Positions 18,544-32,136 of a DNA stretch of 64,000 bases are shown here, in pieces. The notes beneath the pieces are model-generated. The model was not told the origin of the DNA. It did no database searches and saw only the letters and a program-made list of their open reading frames with translations. The translations under genes were made by a program, and so were the position numbers. Source of the DNA: Aliiglaciecola sp. LCG003 (lineage in GTDB: Bacteria > Pseudomonadota > Gammaproteobacteria > Enterobacterales > Alteromonadaceae); contig NZ_CP128185.1 in assembly GCF_030316135.1 (NCBI RefSeq), positions 496,001 through 560,000 of the forward strand. The letters are read 5' to 3'. Within the stretch, counting starts at the first letter, position 1. Each line of letters begins with the position of its first letter.

Positions 18544-21500
18544 TCAGTGAACCCACTTGTGACGTTTAGCTTTTTCATGCATTTTGGTTGCCGTTTCTTT
18601 TGGCATAAAGGCTTGATTATCCTCTTCAAAGAAGAACGCTTGTCGTTGCTTTTTACTGCCAACTTCATTCATGGTTGCGGCATCGTATATACGGCCATTA
18701 ATCACAGTGTATTGCACATATTCACTGCGTTTCAAATCGCTCAATACATCGCCATCAATCACTACTAAATCTGCAACTTTGCCGGCTTCAATACTACCGA
18801 TTTGTTTATCCATACCCAGATGTTTAGCACCATCTATTGTGCCGCCGCGCAATGCTTCCCAAGGTGTAAAGCCACCTTGTTCCATTATCCACAACTCCCA
18901 ATGGGCAGCTAAACCTTCTCGTTGCCCGTGAGCACCAATGTGTACACTCACGCCTTTATCGCGCAATATTTTAGCGTAACTGGCTACATTAAAATGATTG
19001 TATTGGTTGTCTGGAGCAGTTGGACGACGTATAGAACGACGGTCAACAATGAAGTTAGGTGTATAACGCATTAAGCGTTCATTTTTCCACACTTCGGTAC
19101 GGTCGTACCAATATTCCTCGCCCATCAGGCCACCATATGAAACGACAAAGGTAGGTGTGTAACCAAACTCAGTAGCAGCCCACAGAGCGGTTAAATCATT
19201 ATAGCCTTTTTCAATTGGTAAAGAATGCTCCAACCCAGTATGACCGTCTACTAACATGGTCAAATTTTGCTGTAATTTGCCGCCACCTTCAGGCACTACC
19301 ATCATGCCTAGCTCGCGGGCAGCCGCCAAAACTTGTTGACGTTGATCACGACGAGGCTGGTTATAGCTTTTGACCGAAATCGCACCCACATCTTTCATGC
19401 GTTGGAGGTGATACTTAGCATCATCCAAGCTCTTAATAATGGCTTTGTAACCCAATCCTTCCGCGCCGTACAAAATAGTCCCGGTAGAAAAAATACGAGG
19501 TGCGACAATCTTGCCGGCTTTTTGCAATTCTGCGGCAGAAAATATCTCTGTGGTGTCATTTGATGGATCATGAATTGTGGTAACTCCAAAAGCTAGGTTA
19601 GAGTATTGACTCCAATTTTGTTGAGGAATAATTTCATCTGAACCTTGTGCGCCATGGGCATGGGTGTCGATCAAGCCGGGAATAACGGTCTTGCCACTAA
19701 TATCGACCACTTCAGCCCCTTCTGGAATAGCTACATCAGCCGCCTTACCAACAGATTCAATACGATTGCCTTTAATAATGATGACACCATTTTGAATGAC
19801 TTCCTGCTGGTTATTTGCATCACGCATGGTCACAACATTGCCGCCTACCAATGCTTTATAACCAGAAGGCTTGTCTGCTTGGTATTCAAAAGACAAATCA
19901 ATTCCCTCAGTAACTGGCTCAGGCAGGGTCTCCGGTGAATCGGGCAAAAATGCATAAGCATCTTTTAAATCACGTTCAAAGTAGTAAGGGCCATGATACC
20001 AACTGAGGGTCTTATTATTGGGATGCCAAGTCAGGTATTCACCAGCTCGGCTGGAAACTTGCTTAACCGGCACAGACGTACTGGTGGGTCCAATATTTTG
20101 ACGTTTACCTGTTTCCATAAATGGCGCGACATAAGCATTATATTGATGCACAAAAGCAATCCATTTTCCGTCATGAGATAAACGGTACTCAGACACTTTG
20201 TCGGCGCCGTATAAATGCTCGCGCTTGTCTTCACCGTGAATATCAACACTAACTAATTGAGTTTCTGTATAAGCGGTACCGCCGACCACAGTGGTAAAAT
20301 AAACTCGTTCATTATTGCCAGCAAAATGTGGGGCGACACCCGATTGCGATACTCGAGTATGCGTACCCTCATCTAAGTTTGCTACATAGATGCCGGGCTC
20401 AACGGACCACTTAGGTGACAGCAGATAGCCGCCAGTGATTTTACGATAGGTTACGAGTTCTCCGTCTAATGAAAAGCTTGGCTCTACGAAATGGCCAGGG
20501 TTTTTATTGATGGCTTTACCTTTTCCGCCGCTAGCTGAAACTATTCTAATGCTACCTAAATCTTGGTCATTCCAAGTGGTGTAAATGATCTTCTTTCCGT
20601 CGTTAGAGTAACGAGGAAAGTACTCGTCATGTTCATTTTGCTTGGTTAGGCGTTTAACCTTGCCGGATTTCACATCTTTGATATAAAGTTTGCCCAATGC
20701 CTGAAACAATATGGTTTTGCCGTTAGGAGATTTTTGTGCCCAACGGATCATCTTTACTTTAAATTTGTCTGGCGCGACATCGACATCAAATCTAACTGCA
20801 TCGGCATAGTGCATTTTGGTGTTAAGCGAGACAGGAATTGTCGAAAGTTCACCGCTTTTTACCTCAAGTTTATGAAATTTACCTGCGGTCCAGAAAACTA
20901 AGTGTGTGCCATCAGGTGTCCAATCGAAGTAGGCAAAGTACCCTTCGCTACCAAAGCCTTCTTGCATGTCCCGTTCTAAGTCCATGTATAAGGCTTTTTC
21001 ACTGCCATCAGTCAGGTTCTTAACAAACAAGGCTGTCTTGTTTTTGATTCTTTTGATAAAGGCTAATTGTTTGCCGTCAGGTGATGGAGTAGGGACGATG
21101 GCACCTCCTGTACCGCTAATGAATCGTTCTTCATCACCTTTTTCCATATCATAACGAGTAATCGCAAATATGGATTTGAGCGGGTCACGATTGTAACTGA
21201 ATCTCGATCCTGAGGTGATATCTTGAGTAAAGTAGACATATTTCCCATCAGGAGAAAACACCGGATCAGCAATATTCTTTTGGTCTTTCTTGCCGTTTAC
21301 CCGTGCCTTGATTTGAATACCTTCTCCTCCTGAGTGGTGGTACATCCATACTTCGCCAGCAGGTATGCTGCGGCTCGACATGATCCCTTTGGTGGCCAAA
21401 ATATATTGTCCGTCAGGACTCCATTTGGGCGAGTGCATAATATTGTTTTTTTCTTTTGTCACTTGCTTTAAATCTGTGCCATCAATATTCATGAGCCAGA

Positions 21501-21903
21501 TATTGGACAAACCACCACGGTCGGAACTAAATGCGATTTTTTTACCATTAGGGCTGACCGCCGGATGAATGTTCCAAGCAAAATCTTGCGTGAGTGCTCT
21601 GGCTTTGCCACCACTGGCGTCCACAATAAATAAATCCCCTAGGGTGTCGAACACCATATTCTTGCCATCAGGCGTAATATCCAAACTGGCCCAGGTGACT
21701 TCATCAGTTTCAATATCTAACGAGGAAAGATCAAATGGGGGATTTAACACATCCCATTTTTGGGACTCTTCTTTTGCGGTTTTTTCGATTTCAGCATCTT
21801 CGATTTCAGTCTCAGATTGTAACCCGATTGCCGAAAATGACGAGCCTAGAAAAAAGCTGAGCAGCAGCGCACGGAATTTAAAAGTGGCGAAGTATTGTTT
21901 CAT
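18544..21903 (-). CDS. Secreted beta-propeller/amidohydrolase fusion protein
   Basis: Very large exported metal-dependent hydrolase of about 1119 residues. An N-terminal signal peptide precedes a long WD40-like (PD40/TolB-type) propeller, about residues 70-650 of the longest frame, with many SPDGK-type blade motifs. The C-terminal amidohydrolase domain holds the metal ligands THAHG (His752, His754 of the longest frame), a possible bridging lysine in VKSYNQP, and later His residues in LEHSLP and VHIGAHGQ. The tail GSIEAGKVADLVVIDGD is typical of imidazolonepropionase/prolidase-like enzymes. The start at 21903 is preferred (signal peptide MKQYF..., GGA upstream); the frame could begin at 21915. 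Likely a periplasmic peptidase or amidase; substrate unknown. Confidence 0.85.
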   Translation of the reverse strand: MKQYFATFKFRALLLSFFLGSSFSAIGLQSETEIEDAEIEKTAKEESQKWDVLNPPFDLSSLDIETDEVTWASLDITPDGKNMVFDTLGDLFIVDASGGKARALTQDFAWNIHPAVSPNGKKIAFSSDRGGLSNIWLMNIDGTDLKQVTKEKNNIMHSPKWSPDGQYILATKGIMSSRSIPAGEVWMYHHSGGEGIQIKARVNGKKDQKNIADPVFSPDGKYVYFTQDITSGSRFSYNRDPLKSIFAITRYDMEKGDEERFISGTGGAIVPTPSPDGKQLAFIKRIKNKTALFVKNLTDGSEKALYMDLERDMQEGFGSEGYFAYFDWTPDGTHLVFWTAGKFHKLEVKSGELSTIPVSLNTKMHYADAVRFDVDVAPDKFKVKMIRWAQKSPNGKTILFQALGKLYIKDVKSGKVKRLTKQNEHDEYFPRYSNDGKKIIYTTWNDQDLGSIRIVSASGGKGKAINKNPGHFVEPSFSLDGELVTYRKITGGYLLSPKWSVEPGIYVANLDEGTHTRVSQSGVAPHFAGNNERVYFTTVVGGTAYTETQLVSVDIHGEDKREHLYGADKVSEYRLSHDGKWIAFVHQYNAYVAPFMETGKRQNIGPTSTSVPVKQVSSRAGEYLTWHPNNKTLSWYHGPYYFERDLKDAYAFLPDSPETLPEPVTEGIDLSFEYQADKPSGYKALVGGNVVTMRDANNQQEVIQNGVIIIKGNRIESVGKAADVAIPEGAEVVDISGKTVIPGLIDTHAHGAQGSDEIIPQQNWSQYSNLAFGVTTIHDPSNDTTEIFSAAELQKAGKIVAPRIFSTGTILYGAEGLGYKAIIKSLDDAKYHLQRMKDVGAISVKSYNQPRRDQRQQVLAAARELGMMVVPEGGGKLQQNLTMLVDGHTGLEHSLPIEKGYNDLTALWAATEFGYTPTFVVSYGGLMGEEYWYDRTEVWKNERLMRYTPNFIVDRRSIRRPTAPDNQYNHFNVASYAKILRDKGVSVHIGAHGQREGLAAHWELWIMEQGGFTPWEALRGGTIDGAKHLGMDKQIGSIEAGKVADLVVIDGDVLSDLKRSEYVQYTVINGRIYDAATMNEVGSKKQRQAFFFEEDNQAFMPKETATKMHEKAKRHKWVH

Positions 21904-22290
21904 TGCATGTTCCATATTTTTATTATTTGTAATATGACATATTCATCCAATAGATTAACAGCTTGGCCAGCAATAAAGGTTGTTACAGCACATGTAGTCG
22001 AACATGGGTTAATTCAACATGTATCGCTGATTACAAGTTTGCCGATTCTATAGATAAGCAAATTAATCTGGTGGATTTTCATTACTATACGATAAAAAAG
22101 CGGGAGGAAGATCGAATGCCATGCTTTTGGGCTAAATTTAAACTGTTTAATAAGGCAACTTTAGTTAACACTTTCGGCTGTAAAGCGCTTTAGAGATTCT
22201 GATTAACGACGAGTATGTTGTTAACTCTCCGCTATTTTAAATCCTCCTAATCCTATACAGCACAGGGTTTTATCGTTATCTAGATTTTCG
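21904..22290. other. Intergenic region with one possible 25-codon ORF
   Basis: About 390 bases without a recognised gene. On the plus strand 22116-22193 is a 25-codon frame (starts MPCFWAKFKL) with a strong GGAGG ribosome binding site 8 bases upstream. Coding status is uncertain. No terminator or repeat is obvious. Confidence 0.3.
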
Positions 22291-23196
22291 TTAGGTATCT
22301 AGAAGAGCAAGCAGGTCACCGGTTATCGGATAGCCGGTTAATCGTTCGAAATGGATAAACATTGGACTCGGATTTGCTTCAAGGAAGAAGTAACTACCCG
22401 TTGAATCACGACGCCAATCTATCGCGGACCAAGCCATACCTAGTCTCTCTGTTATGACTCGAGCGAGTTTTGCGATGTGTGAGGGGGTTTTTATCGGCAG
22501 GTGTTGTGCTTCTGCCTCTAACCTGAAGTCGACCTTTTCACTGATTATTTCCGCGCTATAAACATGTTTATCGATTACGAAGGTACGGATGTTGGTGCCT
22601 GAAATATAGCGCTGCAGTGTAACAGGTGCATAGCGCAACACTCTTCGTAGTCTCTCAGGTTCAATCAGATCGCTATTAACTAGCGCAGCGTGTGCGCCAC
22701 CATAGACGGGTTTAAAGAGAACTTGTGAAAATTGTTGGTAGAAATCTCGAATGCGCTCCGGATGATTTCCTATATAGGTTTCCGGAATACTTGCCCCACT
22801 TTTTGCTGCAATACTTAGTTGCCTAGGTTTCACTTTGTGACCGTCAAATACCTGCCAGGAATTGACCCAGCGAATGCGCTTATCCTCTAAAAATGTTCGC
22901 AGTAGGCTGTTACTATCATTTTGCGCAATCTGATTAATTGGCGTATGAGTACCTTGTCCAAGCAGTGGTTGATTTATTGTACTCCAAAATACGCTGCGTA
23001 TATCTGCAAATGAATATTCCGCTGTTTCCAGACAAAGCGAGCCACTTTCCTTATAGGGATCCCAACTGATGCAGTGATTATCAGGGAATTTTGCTGTATC
23101 AAACAAATCTGCTTCTATACCGCTTAGCTGACAGGCTTTTAGCATGTGTAAGGCGTGGCAGTCATTACTTGCCCCGAGGATAATTGCGACTGACAT
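22291..23196 (-). CDS. ATP-grasp ligase, putative RiPP (graspetide-type) maturase
   Basis: ATP-grasp enzyme of about 301 residues from the start at 23196, which has AAGGAAG 5 bases upstream (the frame extends further to 23310 without support). Residues 1-100 form the variable N-terminal domain; WVNSWQVFDGHKVKPRQL and IPETYIGN match the pre-ATP-grasp region of RimK/MvdC/MvdD-like enzymes. Nucleotide- and metal-binding motifs are FKPVYGG (Lys162), QRYISGTNIR, AID (Asp260) and FLEANPSP (Glu273, Asn275). It is the last gene of an operon with a double-glycine precursor peptide, an HTH protein and a C39 ABC exporter. This suggests it activates carboxylates of the precursor to form ester or amide links. 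The family is clear; the reaction is inferred from context. Confidence 0.8.
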   Translation of the reverse strand: MSVAIILGASNDCHALHMLKACQLSGIEADLFDTAKFPDNHCISWDPYKESGSLCLETAEYSFADIRSVFWSTINQPLLGQGTHTPINQIAQNDSNSLLRTFLEDKRIRWVNSWQVFDGHKVKPRQLSIAAKSGASIPETYIGNHPERIRDFYQQFSQVLFKPVYGGAHAALVNSDLIEPERLRRVLRYAPVTLQRYISGTNIRTFVIDKHVYSAEIISEKVDFRLEAEAQHLPIKTPSHIAKLARVITERLGMAWSAIDWRRDSTGSYFFLEANPSPMFIHFERLTGYPITGDLLALLDT

Positions 23197-23278
23197 AGTT
23201 CTTCCTTGAAATTGCCCTGTTGAATTGATTGGCGACGTCAGCCCAGTAAATCCAATCTGGGCTGACAATTCGGTCAGC

Positions 23279-23461
23279 TTAATACCAGAAGCCGCCGCCT
23301 TCTTCCCCAATTGCTAGCGTCGAGCCTAACTCCGGCTTTACTGGTGGGGTTGGGGATCTAGGATCTCTCTCTACTAGCTTAGAGCCTAACGACCCTGCGC
23401 CTGAGATTAAATCAGTAGTACATTCGTTGAGTTCCGTTTTCTGAGTGAATGGATGTTCCAT
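23279..23461 (-). CDS. RiPP/bacteriocin-like precursor peptide with double-glycine-type leader
   Basis: 60-residue peptide starting with a good ribosome binding site (AAGGA, 7-base spacing). The leader contains Leu11, Ile19 and a Gly21-Ala22 pair (ELNECTTDLISGA). Leu at -12, Ile at -4 and Gly-Ala at -2/-1 match the leaders cut by C39 peptidases. The predicted mature part, residues 23-60, has no cysteine, five acidic residues (E31, D33, E44, E53, E54), two lysines and six Ser/Thr. It contains a proline-rich stretch SPTPPVKPE and ends in GEEGGGFWY. It lies 82 bases upstream of the ATP-grasp gene in the same operon. No similarity to a known core is recognised; the precursor role is inferred from leader and context. 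Confidence 0.72.
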   Translation of the reverse strand: MEHPFTQKTELNECTTDLISGAGSLGSKLVERDPRSPTPPVKPELGSTLAIGEEGGGFWY

Positions 23462-23582
23462 ATCATTTTCCTTGTATTACTAGGTTAATTATTGCCACAC
23501 ACCATGTGATAGCATGTTAAGTATGGACTGTATTCCTCGAATTGTTAGTCTAGGCCAGTCCAGTTCTACCGTGAAATTATGC

Positions 23583-23807
23583 TCAGATTGCCTGATTGTA
23601 AAAATCAGGAAACAGGGTCTTTAGCATCTTTCTATTGCTCACCGTGAGCTTCTTGAAAATATTGGTACAGTGAAATTTGACCGTTCGCTCACTAATAAAT
23701 AGCTGATCTGCTATAGAGCGATTGGTTAATCCCTGACAGACTTTATCTGCCACTTGAGCTTCCCTTTTAGAAAGCTTTTTGTTAGTTGATGTTGTTGTCT
23801 TTTCCAT
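23583..23807 (-). CDS. Stand-alone LuxR/GerE-type HTH regulator
   Basis: 74-residue protein that is essentially one GerE/LuxR-type helix-turn-helix domain: LSKREAQVADKVCQGLTNRSIADQL, then FISERTVKFHCTNIFKKL. No receiver or autoinducer domain is attached. It lies between the exporter and the precursor genes, 30 bases downstream of the ABC gene, with its own AAGGA ribosome binding site. A GerE-family single-domain protein could bind DNA as a dimer and control the operon or the precursor transcript; this is inference. Possible leader sequences for such control lie in the 121 bases between it and the precursor gene. Confidence 0.82.
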   Translation of the reverse strand: MEKTTTSTNKKLSKREAQVADKVCQGLTNRSIADQLFISERTVKFHCTNIFKKLTVSNRKMLKTLFPDFYNQAI

Positions 23808-23836
23808 CTGATTTTTCCTTAAATAATTGAAATGGA

Positions 23837-25999
23837 TTAGGGCTGTTTTACCGACCAGGTGATGTCGACTAATTGTCCTTTATCTAAGCGCAGGATGCGG
23901 TCAGCACTGGCGATAGTTTGCGGACGATGAGCGACGATTACCCGGGTGATCGATAACTGTTTAATATGATTATTGATAGCGGCTTCATTGAGCACATCTA
24001 AATGGCTGGTGGCTTCATCTAAAAATAAAATTGCGGGGTCTTTGTATAAGGCTCTGGCAAGTATTATGCGTTGCTTTTGACCACCACTGAGACTGGTTCC
24101 CATATCTCCTACCAACGTGTTGTATTGCATGCTGGCAGCCATAATATCTTCGTGGACACAGGCTAAGTGAGCGCAAAATACAACCTTTTGCATGTCTATC
24201 TCAGAATTGAAGCATGCGATGTTGTCGGCTATCGTGCCGTTGAGTAACTGATCTTCTTGCAGTACTCCAGCGATACGCTGGCGGTATTGCGGCAACTGAG
24301 TTAAGGGTGTTTCGTCTACTAGTATTAGCCCGTTGGATGGCTGAAGCAAGCCCATCATACACTTTAACAATGTACTTTTTCCGCATCCGCTTGGGCCTGT
24401 TATGGCGATGGTCTGACCCTGAGGAATATCGATATGAAGATTGGAAAATACATCACTGTCCAACTGACTAAACCTGAAGCTCAAATCTGTCAGTTGAATA
24501 TTGCCTTGGATTGACTTGTTCACGGCAATTAAGTCAGGACTGCTAGCATGTTGTGGATGATTAATTAGGGGATCTATGGGGGTATAAACGATATCGGCAA
24601 GTCGATCAAAGTGCAGTTCCAGCATTCTGAATTCTATCCACTTTTCAATCAGGCTATCCATTGCCGAGATAAAGCGCCCTTTGTAACTGATAAAAGCGTA
24701 TAGCATGCCAACACTAAAGAGGCTGTCGGTTACCGCAAGTGCGGCAAAGTAAATAACGATGATGTTTTCCACCCCAAACAGGAATTTGTTGGCGGTATCA
24801 AAGCCTATTCCCCACTTGCTTAAGCGGATATCTTTGTTCATGGATTCGGCCAATTTATTCTGCCACTGGCTTTGGCGGTCAGACTCCTTAGCAAATAGTT
24901 TTATGGTTTGAATAGCACGTACCGACTCCATGAAATGACTGTTCTCTTTGGCGGCTGAGACAATATTTTCTTCACTGAGTCGGCGTAATGGGCGATAAAA
25001 TAAAACCCGCAGCAGTGCATATAAAATGACAACGGCAATAACGATAAGGGTGAGTTTCGGGTCATACAAAAACATCACTATCAGAGTTAGAAGAGCCATT
25101 AACCCATCTACCATCACTGTCACTAAACCTGTCGTAAGTAAATCTCGTATGCTCTGCAAAGAACCAAAACGAGAGACGACATCTCCCATGTGGCGTTTAG
25201 CAAAGTATTCCATGGGCAATTGTATCAAGTGCCTGAAGACATTAGCGGCCATCTGGATATTTAAGCGGCTGGACAGTTTCAGTATCACAATTTGCCGTAG
25301 GGCCGACGTGGCCGTATCCAAAATCATCATCAAACCAAATCCTAACGCAAGGATCAGTAATAAATTGATGTCTGAACGCAAAATCACATCGTCTACTACC
25401 GTTTGCATGTAATAGGGATGGACAATGGCAAAAAGTTGTAAGAATAAAGACAATAGAAATATGATTAGAAGCGAGCGTTTTAACCCGACGATACTCGACC
25501 AAAATTGGCCGATAGTTAAGGTTTGCTTTTCATGGCCTTTTTCAAAGGCAGTGGTGGGGGTTAATTCAAGCGCTACACCGGTAAACAATTTGTCAACTTC
25601 AGGCGGGCTCAAACTGCGCTCCCCCATAGCCGGATCTAGGATGATAATCTTGTGTTTGGTGACTTTTTTCAACACTACAAAATGCTTCATCTCCCAATGT
25701 AATATACAGGGCGTTTGGAGTTGTTCTAGTTGCTCCATCTCGAGACGCAAGGCCCGAGCGGATAAATTCATTTGTGTGGCGATTTGCATCAGTTGCTTAA
25801 GTGTCGAACCATGTGCTGAGATAGAAAATCGTCTGCGCAAACTCGCAAGGTCAGTCTGAAAACCATAGTAGCTGGTGATCATCGCCAAGCATGCCAAACC
25901 GCACTCGGTCGCTTCTGATTGCAAAATACAGGGTAACTTATTGCAATGGCCAAAATATAGCTGCGATTCTGGGCGGCTGACTGATTCGATAGCGGCCAT
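23837..25999 (-). CDS. Peptidase-containing ABC exporter (C39 domain, bacteriocin/RiPP type)
   Basis: 720-residue half-transporter that removes double-glycine leaders and exports the peptide across the inner membrane. Domains: C39 cysteine peptidase (about 20-150) with Gln27, catalytic Cys33 (SEATECGLAC), His106 (MKHFVVL) and Asp122 (ILDPAMG); ABC transmembrane region (about 165-460); ATPase (about 495-715) with Walker A GPSGCGKST, signature LSGGQ, Walker B ILFLDEATSHLD and H-loop IVAHR. All catalytic residues are intact. Its start codon overlaps the HlyD stop codon by one base (TAATG), so the two are probably translationally coupled. The tail of the operon encodes a matching precursor peptide. 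Confidence 0.95.
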   Translation of the reverse strand: MAAIESVSRPESQLYFGHCNKLPCILQSEATECGLACLAMITSYYGFQTDLASLRRRFSISAHGSTLKQLMQIATQMNLSARALRLEMEQLEQLQTPCILHWEMKHFVVLKKVTKHKIIILDPAMGERSLSPPEVDKLFTGVALELTPTTAFEKGHEKQTLTIGQFWSSIVGLKRSLLIIFLLSLFLQLFAIVHPYYMQTVVDDVILRSDINLLLILALGFGLMMILDTATSALRQIVILKLSSRLNIQMAANVFRHLIQLPMEYFAKRHMGDVVSRFGSLQSIRDLLTTGLVTVMVDGLMALLTLIVMFLYDPKLTLIVIAVVILYALLRVLFYRPLRRLSEENIVSAAKENSHFMESVRAIQTIKLFAKESDRQSQWQNKLAESMNKDIRLSKWGIGFDTANKFLFGVENIIVIYFAALAVTDSLFSVGMLYAFISYKGRFISAMDSLIEKWIEFRMLELHFDRLADIVYTPIDPLINHPQHASSPDLIAVNKSIQGNIQLTDLSFRFSQLDSDVFSNLHIDIPQGQTIAITGPSGCGKSTLLKCMMGLLQPSNGLILVDETPLTQLPQYRQRIAGVLQEDQLLNGTIADNIACFNSEIDMQKVVFCAHLACVHEDIMAASMQYNTLVGDMGTSLSGGQKQRIILARALYKDPAILFLDEATSHLDVLNEAAINNHIKQLSITRVIVAHRPQTIASADRILRLDKGQLVDITWSVKQP

Positions 26000-27252
26000 T
26001 ACATTCTGCCTCGTAAGCTAAGTAAAGGTTCGAAAATCCACTCCAGCAAACTGCGCTCGTCTAGTTGTACATCTGCAGATAGTGTCATTCCTGATTTCAA
26101 ATCTATGTTTTTGCCGTAGGCAGAAACTTGTTGGGATGAGAGAGTGGCGTGAACCAAGTAAACCGGCTCTTGAATGTTCACTGGCGTAGCGTGGACCTCG
26201 CCGGGGAGTATTATCGAATCCGAAACTTGGGTAACTTCACCTGCATATAAACCAAATTTTTGATAAGGAAATCCATCATAGCGAATTTCTAATTTCTGAC
26301 CCGGCGCAATAAAGCCCGCGGCGCGCACAGAGACTAATAGTTTTGCTTGAATATCAGTATCATCAGGTACTATGGATAGCAGCGGCACTGTGGCGTCTAT
26401 TCTTTGTCCTTGGTACGCTTGTAAGTTTGACACCGTACCAGCTCTGCTTGCTTTAATAATATGCCCTTGTTGACTGCTCAGTTGAGTTACCTTTAATGAC
26501 AGTTCACTGAGGTGAGCTTTTAACTGGTTCACATCATCCTGATGGGATTGGGGTAGGGTAACCAACTGACTTTCTAGTATTTGTTGCTGATTAACTCTCT
26601 GAATCTGTTCACGCAGTAAAGCCTGTTCTTCGCTTTGTAACGCCAGCTGTTGCTCTTCGAGTTTATCCAATTCAATATTAGCAATGTGGCCATTGGCGTT
26701 GATCCCGCGGTAACTTATTATTCGCGCTTTTAATAGGGTTTGGCGTTTTGTTAACGTATCTATTTGGGCAGATAAACTGAATAGGTCGTCTTTCGCTGCG
26801 GCTAGTTTTAATTTCGCATTGGCCAGAGCTACATTGTGTAAAGACTGGCTAGTTTCAAGTTGTGCATATACCAGCTTTTGCTGGGTTGAATATTCATCCA
26901 ACAAGGTTTTTTCAAGATTCGAGCCGTCACTTAAGGTGCGATCCCCCTGGATGACTACCAACTCTTGACCTGCGGTGACAGACTGACCTTCACTTACCAG
27001 TACCTGCTTAATTCTGCCATTGGCACTTTGCGGAAAGATTTTCACTACGCCATTTGACGGCTCCAGCCAGCCACTGACTGTTTCTTGTCGAGCATATTGA
27101 CTCCCCACCAACCACACAAACACAGCAACTAGCCAAATAAATACACAGGATGTAACTATCACTATTGAGGTGCTGGGGATCAGCAGTACCTCACCATGCA
27201 ATCGATCCTGTTGGTGCTCCAGTGCACGTTGTCTAAATAGCCCTTCTTGCAT
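25999..27252 (-). CDS. HlyD-family membrane fusion protein (peptide export adaptor)
   Basis: 417-residue periplasmic adaptor. A single N-terminal membrane helix (about 29-51, SIVIVTSCVFIWLVAVFVWL) follows a short cytoplasmic tail. Then come a lipoyl half-motif (GRIKQVLVSEGQSVTAGQ), a long coiled-coil hairpin (about 130-255) and the second lipoyl/beta-barrel region (IIKASRAGTVSNLQAYQGQ). It would link the C39 ABC exporter to an outer-membrane channel such as TolC, which is not encoded here. First gene of the five-gene minus-strand operon. The closest architecture is that of adaptors for colicin V-type and RiPP exporters (CvaA/LagE-like). Confidence 0.92.
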   Translation of the reverse strand: MQEGLFRQRALEHQQDRLHGEVLLIPSTSIVIVTSCVFIWLVAVFVWLVGSQYARQETVSGWLEPSNGVVKIFPQSANGRIKQVLVSEGQSVTAGQELVVIQGDRTLSDGSNLEKTLLDEYSTQQKLVYAQLETSQSLHNVALANAKLKLAAAKDDLFSLSAQIDTLTKRQTLLKARIISYRGINANGHIANIELDKLEEQQLALQSEEQALLREQIQRVNQQQILESQLVTLPQSHQDDVNQLKAHLSELSLKVTQLSSQQGHIIKASRAGTVSNLQAYQGQRIDATVPLLSIVPDDTDIQAKLLVSVRAAGFIAPGQKLEIRYDGFPYQKFGLYAGEVTQVSDSIILPGEVHATPVNIQEPVYLVHATLSSQQVSAYGKNIDLKSGMTLSADVQLDERSLLEWIFEPLLSLRGRM

Positions 27253-27883
27253 AAAATTAACCTGCTCAATGCTGACAGCTTGTTAACTGACATTTTCTGG
27301 GGTGGTTGCCCCAACACATTGTGTTAAGTTGAAAAGGTAAAGTTCTCCATCCTTGGATTTACCGCTCCTTGTGCAAAAAATACGATGTGGACATCACCAT
27401 CAGCGTGATATTTGTCATCCTTGACTAAGCACAGATAAGCGATCTGTGACTGAGTCTACATTGTGCATTCTTGCGAGGTCTCCTTACCTAAATCCTTCAT
27501 CCTTGTTGCTTCCATGCAGTGACAATGTCATTGACGGTTTGGCCATCCTGACCTTGCGTTTTATTGACTTTGCGCACCTTTTTGTAGTCACAACCTTCCG
27601 TGGTTGTTCCTTTTGCTTCTCAGTCCGTTTGAGAAGCTGTCATTTTCCGTAATGACCATTGGAGACTAAAACATGGGTTATTTTATGCGTTGTAGGAATC
27701 GGGCAAAAACATGCAGGAATAGGACAACATCTAGCTTGAAGGAATAATTCGAGCAGGTGAAATGTAAAATTGGGTATGAAGGATATAGTTTTGGGACATG
27801 CTGAGCACCCACCAAAATTACACCGACCTGAATGAGGTTAAATCGGCAGCTATAGCTTGATACTCACTGGAGAGATAGGTTGC
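27253..27883. other. Gene-poor leader region upstream of the RiPP operon, with probable gene remnants
   Basis: About 630 bases. A small hairpin TGGGG/CCCCA lies at 27298-27313. On the minus strand there are two stretches that read like protein: 27497-27643 (starts MTASQTD, then an in-frame TGA, then ends in VTAWKQQG) and 27324-27455 (no start codon; ends in MENFTFST). They look like decayed small genes rather than functional ones. No confident promoter was found. Confidence 0.3.
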
Positions 27884-28192
27884 TTAAAATTTAAGTTTAC
27901 CGCTGAGAATATCTTTGTACATTACCCAGTCTGCCGCGAGGCTATAGAAGGGATATTGAAAAGTTGCGGGTTTATTATGTTCAAAAAAGAAATGACCCAC
28001 CCAGGCGAAACCGTACCCTAACAGGGGAATAAACAGCAGTAACATCCATTGCTGAGTAAAAATAGCAGTAAGAAGGGTCACCAATACCAAAGTCGAACCA
28101 ACGAAGTGTAGTCGCCGACAGGTTAAATTTTGATGTTCCTGAAGATAAAAGGGGTAAAACTCATCGAAACTGACGAACTGTTTAGTTGACAT
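27884..28192 (-). CDS. Mpo1-like / DUF962 small membrane protein
   Basis: 102-residue membrane protein of the DUF962 family. It has the family pattern: early RRLHFVG, two closely spaced hydrophobic helices (about 31-66), then GHFFFEHNKPATF and a C-terminal DWVMYKDI segment. The yeast relative Mpo1 is an iron-dependent dioxygenase in fatty-acid alpha-oxidation and uses conserved histidines of this kind. Whether the bacterial protein has that activity is unknown. Monocistronic, divergent from the cnoX gene. Confidence 0.85.
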   Translation of the reverse strand: MSTKQFVSFDEFYPFYLQEHQNLTCRRLHFVGSTLVLVTLLTAIFTQQWMLLLFIPLLGYGFAWVGHFFFEHNKPATFQYPFYSLAADWVMYKDILSGKLKF

Positions 28193-28380
28193 AAAACGCC
28201 TTGGATACTCTCGATAAACTAGGATTAAAATCCTAGCACAACCGTTTACGGTAAATTGTCGCTTAGTTAACAGTTCAACAAAAAATCACGGTGACAGCAA
28301 GCTGAAATTGATATTGGTTTTCACGTATACTATCCCCACTTATTAATTCAGCCACCTAATTAGCAGCAAAAGAGTAGCCA

Positions 28381-29226
28381 ATGCAGAATGTCGTAAATCT
28401 TAATATTGAAAATTTTCAGCAAATTATCATTGAACAATCAAAGCATAAACATGTTTTAGTAGACTTTTGGGCTCCCAATCTTGAAATGTGTGAAGAGCTT
28501 TCTCCAATTTTGCAAAAATTGGCTTCACAGCATGCTGAGCACTTGATTTATGCAAGAGTTAATTGTGAGCAAGAGCAGCAGATTGCTTCACAGTTCGGTA
28601 TTCGCAGCTTGCCAACAGTAATCTTGGTTAAAGATGGCCAGCCGGTGGATGGGTTCGCGGGCCCACAAATGGAAGAACAAATTCAAGAAATGCTTGAGAA
28701 GCATTTGCCCAATGCTGAAGATGGTTTGTATGAGAAAGCTGTAGCAAATGTCAATTTAGGCGACTACCAAGCCGCCTTTAGTGACGCAAAGCAGGCTCAT
28801 GATCTTGATCCTAAACGCGCTGATATCGCAGTCTTGTTAGCAGACTGCTATGTGGAGTTGGGTAATATAAATCAAGCTAAAATTCTTCTGGAAACTGTCA
28901 CTTTAGTCGATCAAAATGGTTATTATCATAGCGTTCAGGGTAAGGTTGAATTGGCCGAACAGGCCGCAGAATCCCCTGAAATCAAGCAGTTGCAAAAGCA
29001 GTTGGAGCAAGAGCCTGATAACATGCAAGTGAAGGTGGATCTTGCCATACAACTTCAACAAGCTAATCAGCCTGAAGAAGCGCTTGATTTATTGTTCTCA
29101 GTTTTAGCCAAAGATCTCAATTTTGGTGAGGCAAAAAAGTTTACCTTAGATATGATCAATGCGATGCCAGATGGGGATCCGTTAAAGTCCAAAGCTAGAC
29201 GAAAAATGTATAGTTTGCTCTACTAA
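28381..29226 (+). CDS. cnoX: Thioredoxin-fold/TPR co-chaperone, CnoX (YbbN)-like
   Basis: 281-residue protein: N-terminal thioredoxin domain (about 5-110, VLVDFWAP, cis-Pro in RSLPTVIL) and C-terminal tetratricopeptide repeats (about 115-280). The redox motif WCxxC is degenerate: the first Cys is replaced by Leu34 (NLEMC, only Cys37 kept), so it cannot act as an ordinary disulfide reductase. E. coli CnoX also lacks the first cysteine and works as a chaperedoxin handing substrates to GroEL and DnaK. A terminator shared with gppA follows. Confidence 0.87.
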   Translation: MQNVVNLNIENFQQIIIEQSKHKHVLVDFWAPNLEMCEELSPILQKLASQHAEHLIYARVNCEQEQQIASQFGIRSLPTVILVKDGQPVDGFAGPQMEEQIQEMLEKHLPNAEDGLYEKAVANVNLGDYQAAFSDAKQAHDLDPKRADIAVLLADCYVELGNINQAKILLETVTLVDQNGYYHSVQGKVELAEQAAESPEIKQLQKQLEQEPDNMQVKVDLAIQLQQANQPEEALDLLFSVLAKDLNFGEAKKFTLDMINAMPDGDPLKSKARRKMYSLLY

Positions 29227-29296
29227 GTCGGGGCTAGACAAGATCGGATTTTACCAAGTTTGGGCCTGTAAAAAGACGCGGGTAATGGGTAATACG

Positions 29297-29321
29297 AAAA
29301 AGGGCCAGCGGCCCTTTTTTT
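29297..29321. terminator. Bidirectional terminator between cnoX and gppA
   Basis: A-run, GGGCC (29302-29306), a 3-base loop, GGCCC (29310-29314) and a T-run. It can terminate both convergent genes. Confidence 0.8.
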
Positions 29322-29365
29322 AGAATTTAAATTGCTTAACGATGCAAATAATACACTTGCCAGGG

Positions 29366-30877
29366 CTATTTGAAGCTCAATTGCCAGCCAATTTTATGCT
29401 GTAGCCATTTTTCATTAGCTAACTCGACATCTATCAAAGGGTGTGAACGCAACCAACCATCGGGAAATTCAAGTTGCCAATGGTTGTCCTCAATGTTCAG
29501 CACTATTGGAGGAAGCACATTGTCTTTACGTCTGATTGATAGTAAACAAGCCAAGCGCAGTATTTTAACCAAGCCGAACAACAATGGTTGCAGCTCTGCA
29601 TGGTATTGATCAAATATCGAGAGGTCCAAATCCTGACGGTGGGATAATACCAAGTCTCGAATGCTTTTACGCTGCATGTGGGAGTAACCGTTCAATGCGT
29701 GATAGGCCAAGATATAAGCGCCATGCTTATGGTATTGCTTATATTCTATGTGCAATCCTAATTCGTGCAGTAAAGCGGCCGCTTCGATAACCGCCATAGC
29801 ATCGAAATTACAAATATTAGATTGTGCGCATAACTGTTTATAAAGATCCACCGCCACTAAAGATACTCGTTGAGCTTGGTCAGCATCGATGTGATATTTG
29901 TTAATGGTTTCCTGCAAAGAGTGCTGGCGTCTGTCATTCTTTTCTGTGTCTTCAAGCATGCCGTAAATGAGGCCTTCCCTTAGCGCTCCGCCAGATATTT
30001 GCATTTCGCGTATCTTCAATTGCTCAAATAACGCGATTAGAATGCATAGGCCACTTGGAAAAATAGCTCGCCGAGATTCACTTAATCCTTCGATGGCAAG
30101 TTGCTCGATATTGCCGCAATCGATGCATTGCTGCATTAAATTGTGCAAATAATCCAATCGAATTGCGTCGCTTATCCCTTGTTCTACCAGAATTTCCACA
30201 ATCGCTTGTGGGGTGCCTGAGGCGCCTAAACATTGTTCCCAGTCAAAACAAACGAAGTCGTCTATCACAGGAAGTAACTTCTGCTTGGCAACGCTGATGG
30301 CTTTTTGCACATGCTGTTCACTAAGTTCCCCATTTGGGAAGTACCTTTCCATAAAGGTAACGCATCCCATATCAAGGCTAACTAAGTTAATTGGTTGCAT
30401 GTCGTTACCAATAATGACTTCAGTACTTGCCCCACCTATGTCGATAACCAAGGTATTGCCTTGATTAGCCGAGGTATAGGCTACGCCAAGATAAATTTGT
30501 CGGGCTTCCTCTTCACCACTGATAACTTCTAATTTGTGGTTTAATATGGTTTGGGCTTTTTGAATGAATACATCGGCATTTTTAGCTAAGCGCAGAGTGG
30601 CAGTACCGACAATTTTGATATTTGAAAGGGGGATGTCTTGCAGTCTTTCCGCAAAGGTTGCTAAACAACTCCAACCCCGCTCCATACTAACATCATCGAG
30701 CACCATATTCTCATCTAGCCCGGCAGCTAAGCGGACCTTCTGTTTTACTTTACCAATAATTTGAACACTGCCAGAGACCACTCTGACAATCACTAAATGG
30801 AAACTATTGGAACCAAGATCAACGGCTGCGTAGAGTTGATCCTGGTTTAATGATGATGATATAGCTGTATTTTCCAT
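29366..30877 (-). CDS. gppA: Ppx/GppA family phosphatase (pppGpp phosphohydrolase)
   Basis: 503-residue enzyme of the actin-fold Ppx/GppA family, which hydrolyses pppGpp to ppGpp and/or inorganic polyphosphate. Visible motifs: phosphate-1 AAVDLGSNSFHLVIV, EEEARQIYLGV (catalytic Glu region), phosphate-2 DIGGASTEVI, LGASGTPQA, then a C-terminal HD-like domain (ALLHELGLHI). Its start codon overlaps the rhlB stop by one base (TAATG). The order gppA-rhlB next to trxA-rho matches E. coli, which favours GppA over Ppx. Confidence 0.9.
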   Translation of the reverse strand: MENTAISSSLNQDQLYAAVDLGSNSFHLVIVRVVSGSVQIIGKVKQKVRLAAGLDENMVLDDVSMERGWSCLATFAERLQDIPLSNIKIVGTATLRLAKNADVFIQKAQTILNHKLEVISGEEEARQIYLGVAYTSANQGNTLVIDIGGASTEVIIGNDMQPINLVSLDMGCVTFMERYFPNGELSEQHVQKAISVAKQKLLPVIDDFVCFDWEQCLGASGTPQAIVEILVEQGISDAIRLDYLHNLMQQCIDCGNIEQLAIEGLSESRRAIFPSGLCILIALFEQLKIREMQISGGALREGLIYGMLEDTEKNDRRQHSLQETINKYHIDADQAQRVSLVAVDLYKQLCAQSNICNFDAMAVIEAAALLHELGLHIEYKQYHKHGAYILAYHALNGYSHMQRKSIRDLVLSHRQDLDLSIFDQYHAELQPLLFGLVKILRLACLLSIRRKDNVLPPIVLNIEDNHWQLEFPDGWLRSHPLIDVELANEKWLQHKIGWQLSFK

Positions 30878-32136
30878 TAACGCCTTTTATGTTGGTGATT
30901 GCTTGGACGTTTTTGATATGTTTTACCACTTTGTAGACGTTTTTTAAACTGTGGCTTAGGCACTTTTACATCTTCAAGCAAAGACGATTGATCATAATTG
31001 CTAACCGGAATGGTCCGACCGATATAGGTTTCGATAGCGGGTAAATTCAGTGCATACTTCTCACAAGCAAAGCTAATCGCGTGACCGCTTTTACCAGCGC
31101 GTCCTGTTCGACCGATACGGTGTACATAATCTTCAGCATCGTCGGGTAAGTCAAAATTAAATACATGAGTCACTTTTTCGATGTGCAAGCCTCGGGCTGC
31201 TACATCGGTGGCAACTAATATATCGATTTTATCTTTACCAAAATCTTCTAATATTTTCAGACGTTTACGCTGGGGGACGTCGCCACTGAGTAAACCAACA
31301 CGGTGGCCATCCGCTTCTAACCAGTCGCTGAGTTTTTCACATACATGTTTAGTATTCGCAAACACGATAGCCTTTTCCGGCCATTCATCTTCTAAGAGCG
31401 TCAGTAACAGTAACATTTTGTCTTCGTCTGACGGATAGAATAGCTCTTCTTGGATTCGACTGGCGGTAACTTTGTCGTGGACAACTTCTACGTGGGTAGG
31501 GTTGTTCATATGTTCGTAGGCAAGCTCTTGAACACGATACGACAAGGTTGCTGAAAACAACATGCTTAATCTTTTCGTTGGCTCAGGCATGCGTCTAAAC
31601 ATATATCTGATATCTTTAATAAAGCCCAAATCGAACATGCGGTCGGCTTCATCTAAAACGGCCACTTGAATATTTTCTAGTGAAAACACGTTCTGTTTGT
31701 AATAATCAATGATGCGGCCAGTGGTACCAATTATGATATCAACACCGGATTGTAAAGATTCCCGTTGACTTTGGTAGCCTTCGCCCCCATAAATTAAACC
31801 AAGCGATATGCCTGTGTGCTTACTGAGTAATTCAGCATCGTTATAAATTTGCACAGCCAACTCGCGAGTTGGTGCCATAATAATGGCTCTGGGTTGCTTT
31901 TTAGACTCATTAGGATGTGTTAACAGACGATGAAATGTGGCAACCAAGAAAGCAATAGTCTTTCCGGTTCCCGTTTGTGCCTGTCCAGCAATATCCTGCC
32001 CATCTAACAAATGAGGTAGACTCAATGCCTGGATAGGAGTGCAATGTAAGAAATTCGCTTCTGTTAATGCTTTTAAAACATCCTCATGGATGGGCAAATC
32101 AGAAAAATGTGTTTCAGTTAAATGTGTTGTTTGCAT
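30877..32136 (-). CDS. rhlB: ATP-dependent RNA helicase RhlB
   Basis: DEAD-box helicase of 419 residues, in E. coli a component of the RNA degradosome. Motifs: Q motif ([10 protein letters not shown]), motif I AQTGTGKT (53-60), PTRELA, motif II DEAD (162-165), motif III SAT and motif [12 protein letters not shown]. The C-terminus is a short basic tail ([12 protein letters not shown]), which may bind RNA or RNase E. Divergent from trxA; upstream of and coupled to gppA, the conserved gammaproteobacterial arrangement. Confidence 0.95.

Follow-up and report, generated by a model that had tools for sequence, protein, structure and literature searches.

What does an operon make that combines an ATP-grasp enzyme with a 60-residue peptide and a peptide exporter of its own, and is the product of a new kind? 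The question is raised by a 64,000-nt stretch of the Aliiglaciecola sp. LCG003 genome (contig NZ_CP128185.1, positions 496,001 to 560,000), here called the window. A preliminary description had proposed a graspetide-class RiPP with an ATP-grasp macrocyclase, dedicated C39/HlyD export and a core motif that it could not recognize as that of plesiocin. The five consecutive minus-strand genes that it listed all lie where it had placed them (Table 1). They run in the order HlyD, C39 exporter, LuxR-type HTH, precursor and ATP-grasp, and the first two overlap by one shared base (TAATG at 25999).

Table 1. Features of the operon and its upstream region, in window coordinates
Feature	Position	Strand	Evidence
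Array of small GGA-loop hairpins before the HlyD gene	27346..27656	(-)	Hairpin scan, folding
HlyD-type membrane fusion protein, type I secretion adaptor, 417 aa	25999..27252	(-)	Pfam HlyD_3 1.6e-13
C39 peptidase-containing ABC transporter, 720 aa	23837..25999	(-)	Pfam Peptidase_C39 3.7e-39
Stand-alone LuxR/GerE-type HTH protein, 74 aa	23583..23807	(-)	Pfam GerE 2.3e-20
Graspetide precursor, 60 aa	23279..23461	(-)	ORF, orthologues in the same gap, alignment A2
Leader, residues 1-22, with MxHPF motif and predicted Gly21-Ala22 C39 cleavage site	23396..23461	(-)	Alignment A2
Core unit S47-T-L-A-I-G-E-E54	23300..23323	(-)	Alignment A2, PsnA2 comparison
ATP-grasp graspetide synthetase, 301 aa	22291..23196	(-)	Profile (PsnB 7drm 7.9e-41), predicted fold

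The HlyD protein also matched the NCBIfam model type_I_hlyD (1.5e-37, under the cut-off), and the exporter carries the further Pfam domains ABC_membrane (8.8e-43) and ABC_tran (2.9e-31). For the ATP-grasp gene, ATG 23196 is the most likely start and is preferred to the TTG at 23310 upstream of it, because most homologues start at the corresponding residue. Between 21900 and 28300, promoter-like sites showed no excess (9, compared with 12.9 in shuffles), and the 6 terminator-like sites in the same region, compared with 4.7 in shuffles, were not judged to be an excess.

We compared the ATP-grasp protein with family models, with solved chains and by its predicted fold. Its profile found PsnB as the best of the solved chains (143.5 bits for 7drm), compared with 113.5 bits for MdnC and 41.4 bits for RimK; all six graspetide synthetase sequences scored above RimK. 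With an AlphaFold2 model (pLDDT 91.4) as the Foldseek query, ranks 1-32 were all graspetide synthetases, PsnB taking ranks 1-2, and RimK appeared from rank 33. The modelled fold says that the protein is a graspetide synthetase, and no unrelated clade, which the preliminary description had named as a possible objection, outscored that family. Fold and tree alone fail to separate group 2 from other groups, because AMdnB (1.2e-25) and PruB (1.6e-25) are nearly level with PsnB (8.2e-26) in Foldseek, and PsnB, which is about 24% identical to the window's enzyme, lies on a branch of the tree that is very long and unsure. The assignment to group 2, we would say, rests on the sequence of the core, on the profile and on the published assignment of a relative.

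Graspetide models, to which the preliminary description had pointed for both genes, pick up the enzyme but miss the precursor. The ATP-grasp matched the NCBIfam maturase models GRASP_SAV_5884 (4.3e-35) and MvdC (5.5e-25), both far under their curated cut-offs. The NCBIfam precursor model TIGR04186 (GRASP_targ) did not match the precursor and scored highest, at 14 bits, at another place in the genome. The precursor found no family in Pfam or NCBIfam at E up to 1, and its profile (alignment A2) matched no PDB chain at E up to 10.

Alignment with its relatives was more informative. Over 12 distinct precursors (alignment A2), M1, H3, P4, F5, P43, T48, A50, G52, E53, G55 and G56 are invariant; past the leader, only P43 and the residues listed after it do not vary. 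The last two residues of the window's leader are Gly-Ala, where relatives have Gly-Gly, Ala-Gly or Gly-Ala, and we placed the cleavage site by the rule for double-glycine leaders (Leu at -12, Ile/Val at -4). The sole cysteine, C14, lies in the leader, leaving the 38-residue core cysteine-free as described earlier. A variable Pro-rich spacer separates the leader from the C-terminal end, which in the 12 precursors consists of one unit, [S/T]-T-x-A-x-G-E-[E/D]-G-G. A six-frame search of the window for the pattern [ST]TxAxGE[ED]GG gave one occurrence; none of 50 shuffles had it. Most of the Lys, Ser, Thr, Glu and Asp residues of the core sit in the spacer, and the conserved unit has only S47, T48, E53 and E54. 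From the alignment we predict S47 and T48 as donors and E53 and E54 as acceptors. The precursor gene also holds a 17-nt direct repeat (88%; 23374-23390 and 23314-23330, 60 nt apart). In this strain only, the spacer contains SKLVERDP, whose residues have the spacing of a second unit, one with Lys.

The core unit has a close counterpart in a known graspetide. The window's STLAIGEE is identical at 7 of 8 positions to TTLAIGEE of PsnA2 (PDB 7drm), the loop fully so, with Ser replacing the first Thr. The PsnA2 chain ends in YTTLAIGEE in PDB entries 7drm, 7drn, 7dro and 7drp; it was reached through a four-unit relative (Pleionea, L057) at E 0.1, and the identity is a reading of the aligned letters. 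With the same Ser for Thr, the unit fits the group 2 pattern, TTxxxxEE (two donors, four loop residues, two acceptors). The match to the PsnA2 unit rules out a new core class: the apparently unknown motif turns out to be the plesiocin unit, encoded beside an ATP-grasp that matches PsnB best. We conclude from these sequences that the operon is a plesiocin-type (group 2) graspetide system with a single core unit, and that its core is not new. Enzymes of the microviridin/marinostatin type (MdnB, MdnC, MstB) share the fold and chemistry of the window's ATP-grasp. A PFFARFL leader motif and a TxKYPSD-type core are the marks of microviridins; neither is found in the 60-residue precursor, and the absence of PFFARFL rules out a microviridin identity. 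The leader motif itself is also given in PMC7823629.

Like plesiocin (PsnA2/PsnB), the system has a core unit TTxAxGEE-GG, a single ATP-grasp enzyme and a double-glycine-type leader. It departs from plesiocin in having one unit instead of four, which follows a long Pro-rich spacer and sits right at the C-terminus, and in a leader that starts MxHPF. Repetition of the unit, as in plesiocin, occurs among relatives: the Pleionea precursor carries four, and in a Leptolyngbya MAG (L059) an open frame with eight plesiocin-type units lies ~940 nt before the ATP-grasp gene. In PMC13097080, graspetides fall into 43 numbered groups, a similarity network of their ATP-grasps has a group 2 cluster at alignment score 70, C39-type transporters are frequent in group 2, and plesiocin is a hairpin and a potent serine protease inhibitor. 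At two further loci, L141 (genome G359) and L140 (G378), several short MHPF-leader precursors lie downstream of one ATP-grasp gene, and these clusters contain one-donor units such as VTMAIPEDG. The HPF start resembles the Phhx(1,2)h leader motifs described in PMC8939145. It is common to the window's relatives and cyanobacteria, and is absent from the precursors of L087, L089, L090, L092 and L094-L097, which are mostly one-donor.

Our main reading, to which we assign a probability of roughly 85%, is that this plesiocin-type group 2 operon makes a bicyclic, exported 38-residue peptide that is likely a serine protease inhibitor. For ring number, connectivity, cleavage site, export and protease inhibition we infer the following course. 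The ATP-grasp enzyme would bind the leader of the precursor, probably via MxHPF, phosphorylate the side chains of E53 and E54 and join them to T48 and S47. Two nested side-chain esters would result around the Leu-Ala-Ile-Gly loop, T48-E53 inside and S47-E54 outside. The C39 domain of the exporter would cut after Gly21-Ala22, and the C39/HlyD machine, with an outer-membrane channel supplied from elsewhere in the genome, would export a long Pro-rich arm carrying a bicyclic C-terminal hairpin. For the 38-residue core the calculated [M+H]+ is 3984.05 in linear form, 3966.04 with one ring and 3948.03 with two. The loop, which is the same as in the first PsnA2 unit, would then inhibit a serine protease; by analogy with plesiocin, the product is probably an inhibitor of that kind. 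By analogy with marinostatin-like inhibitors, the protease would recognize the residue that follows the inner Thr, which in the window is Leu.

The operon is conserved well beyond this strain. The operon was present in all eight of the genus's genomes with a completeness of 90% or more, and the ninth genome (59% complete) had no match. Among 98 relatives searched, 27 had matches at E <= 0.001; 12 of the matches, besides the window's own, were strong (39-60% identity). At the level of the family, a match to the profile at E <= 1e-30 was present in 66 of 394 genomes, 60 of which reached 1e-60 or better. A scan of contigs with the single ATP-grasp sequence as query found zero relatives, and the same scan with alignment A1 found 49 loci. 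The order HlyD-C39-HTH-ATP-grasp is kept in 12/12 strong loci (L031-L042), each with the HTH gene between exporter and precursor and with a small ORF for a precursor in the gap where the window has its own; it was not seen in seven weaker loci (L043-L049). Orthologous operons lacking the small ORF or a conserved core would have spoken against the preliminary description. The ORF is present in all 12, T48 and E53 do not vary, and the conserved operon supports a graspetide-class RiPP with an ATP-grasp macrocyclase and dedicated C39/HlyD export.

The neighbours, identified by eye, are genes for a large TolB-like amidohydrolase, a 102-aa protein, a thioredoxin-like protein and a Ppx-like phosphatase, and they are common to the genus and to some other genera on at least one side. 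Because these flanking genes are shared, we conclude from the gene neighbourhoods that the operon is an old chromosomal resident of the genus and some other genera and no recent arrival. On this view, a marine bacterial genus carries a group 2 graspetide operon as a stable part of its chromosome. In L037, L038 and L041, small ORFs that look membrane-like come after the HTH gene. L037 also has, 82-184 nt beyond that gene, a small TTG-started ORF, MTDDQLNQVSGGGFW..., that might encode a second double-glycine peptide.

One relative has been studied experimentally. Gra-5 of Glaciecola sp. KUL10 is reported in PMC9576775 as a group 2 graspetide that was expressed and showed one dehydration; it is without one donor and acceptor set relative to plesiocin, and its authors judged it inefficiently modified. 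KUL10 has a single ATP-grasp of this family (L090), with 36% identity to the window's, and the precursor beside it ends in VITLALGEDGG.... As KUL10 has only one such ATP-grasp, the L090 locus is very probably that of Gra-5. The window's system shares with Gra-5 the ATP-grasp family and the TxAxGE.GG end; unlike the window's unit, that of Gra-5 has Ile at the outer donor position (VITLALGED), and its precursor and ATP-grasp genes lie ~6.4 kb from the HTH gene.

We investigated whether outer donor and outer acceptor change together in 64 rows, one unit per relative with distinct enzymes. From 52 rows (the window, L034, L042 and the 49 loci of the A1 scan) 39 were used, after leaving out L052 (same as L034), L063 (doubtful frame TTFAIAEK), L064 (other repeat type), L080 (three precursors of mixed type) and those in which no unit was found (L066, L067, L069, L076, L082, L083, L085, L088 and L098). 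The other 25 came from the 49 regions L131-L179, of which 12 were omitted as genomes already in the set, L171-L175 for split enzyme hits (all ITMAIGEG, agreeing with co-change), L179 as a near copy of L155, and L137, L145, L169, L176, L177 and L178 because they had no unit. One unit was picked by eye where there were several precursors or units (L134, L138, L140, L141), and the L065 unit carries one extra residue.

The inner pair is T and E in 64/64 rows, partly by construction, since the unit patterns required S/T at the inner donor and E or E/D at the inner acceptor; in L059 the inner donor of one further repeat is S. An outer donor is present in 27 rows (5 S, 22 T), and the outer acceptor is E in 26 of these and D in the remaining one (L097, TT..ED). 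In the 37 rows without an outer donor (I, Y, F or V at that position) the acceptor position holds D, G, N, H or T and never E. Outer donor and acceptor thus change together in 63/64 relatives, but over only 4-5 events: the phylogeny has five donor and four acceptor changes, too few for significance, and of three supported independent pairs two agree, none disagrees and one shows no difference. L097 and the left-out, doubtful frame of L063 oppose the co-change. Within a Massilia locus the precursors differ from each other likewise (TTMAIGEE, compared with LTWGIGEA and ITYAIGEA), and genome G425 has both the two-donor and the one-donor kind, in two loci. Such co-change is what the nested pairing of S47-E54 outside T48-E53 predicts, and it would account for Gra-5 having a single ring. 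Natural variation from eight through four to one units, and from two to one predicted rings, offers a set for testing ring connectivity and could probe the link between ring number and protease inhibition.

These data bear on whether S47 is used at all. A single ring (T48-E53) with S47 unused, as predicted for the Alteromonas and KUL10 relatives, would suit the Ser, not Thr, at the outer position in the window and the loss of one water from the KUL10 product (PMC9576775). We nevertheless consider it unlikely, as that position alternates between Ser and Thr in close relatives, E54 being kept in all of them, and is Ile in KUL10. Slightly less credible still, in our view, are further or different crosslinks through the spacer residues S24, S27, K28, E31, D33, S36, T38, K42 and E44, including a Lys amide, which would leave no simple plesiocin hairpin. 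The lack of spacer conservation across the 12 precursors in the alignment argues against such crosslinks despite the spacing of SKLVERDP, its 17-nt DNA similarity (88%) to the real unit and the further units of some relatives.

The enzyme might also be no peptide macrocyclase, and be a RimK-like amino-acid ligase that merely lies beside a C39 substrate, as its Pfam name would have it (RimK ATP-grasp, 1.4e-4). We regard this as very improbable and rejected a RimK-type ligase on the profile scores and fold ranks, in both of which graspetide synthetases beat RimK. Operons in many genera, moreover, pair the enzyme with the precursor, whose core belongs to a known graspetide type.

How the operon might be controlled is suggested by the DNA upstream of HlyD. 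Aligning this region revealed conserved GGA-rich patches, and a scan for hairpins with at least four Watson-Crick pairs and a loop of 4-8 containing GGA found six in 450 nt of the window, with 0.43 expected. The densest 350-nt stretch on either strand of the window is the one before HlyD (6 hairpins, compared with a maximum of 3-5 in 20 shuffles). Over 20 operons, the 450 nt before HlyD hold 70 such hairpins, where the other stretches of these loci would lead one to expect 8.6. The enrichment reached p <= 0.02 in 16 of these operons and did not in L065, L091, L092 and L095. It is strand-specific (70 on the sense strand, 13 on the other), and GGA is the commonest trinucleotide in such loops, with 33% of its occurrences there compared with 12% for the other trinucleotides together. 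The stems of the first hairpin vary (GTCATT/AATGAC, GTCGTT/AACGAC, GACGTT/AACGTC) and the GGA of the loop is kept. Of 100 shuffles of the window's leader region, 99 fold less well than the region itself (z -2.94), and the predicted fold contains the first three GGA hairpins of the region.

Many short GGA-loop hairpins on one strand are a feature of CsrB/RsmZ-type RNAs and of CsrA-bound 5' leaders, and the genome encodes one CsrA gene. Unlike CsrB/CsrC RNAs, the array has no Rfam match: within 20000-32000 nothing reached the gathering score (CsrB RF00018 and CsrC RF00084 included), CsrC scored only 11.8 bits (E 0.4), and CsrB had no match in the genome. In L041/L086 and L042 the array also stands before HlyD where the flank is an HMG-CoA reductase gene, which rules out an independent csrB gene with a fixed place next to the thioredoxin gene. 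By its sequence the array is a candidate CsrA/RsmA-controlled leader or linked CsrB-like RNA, and a conserved RNA leader may control the operon. Among the best 8 of 367 matches of a literature search, none linked CsrA/RsmA with graspetides, microviridin or marinostatin. Dedicated regulation through the HTH protein, as the preliminary description suggested, is a guess; a GTCCCA-type repeat seen by eye upstream of the array was considered as its binding site and dropped, its frequency being no higher than in shuffles.

A wider proposal, which we hold tentatively and at somewhat less than even odds, is that a travelling multi-site GGA leader (or CsrB-like sponge RNA) puts these operons under CsrA/RsmA control, and that stepwise joint loss of the outer ring donor and acceptor has made monocyclic inhibitors in Alteromonas and its kin, the one dehydration of Gra-5 being complete modification. 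If the GGA-hairpin leader binds CsrA, changing Csr signalling could unlock production, which would be of practical help; the natural producers and roles of most graspetides are unknown. Against the reading of the array as a leader stand a few other upstream stretches of the operons with 3-5 GGA hairpins, before the HTH gene in L054, before the HTH and precursor genes in L055 and before the ATP-grasp gene in L058.
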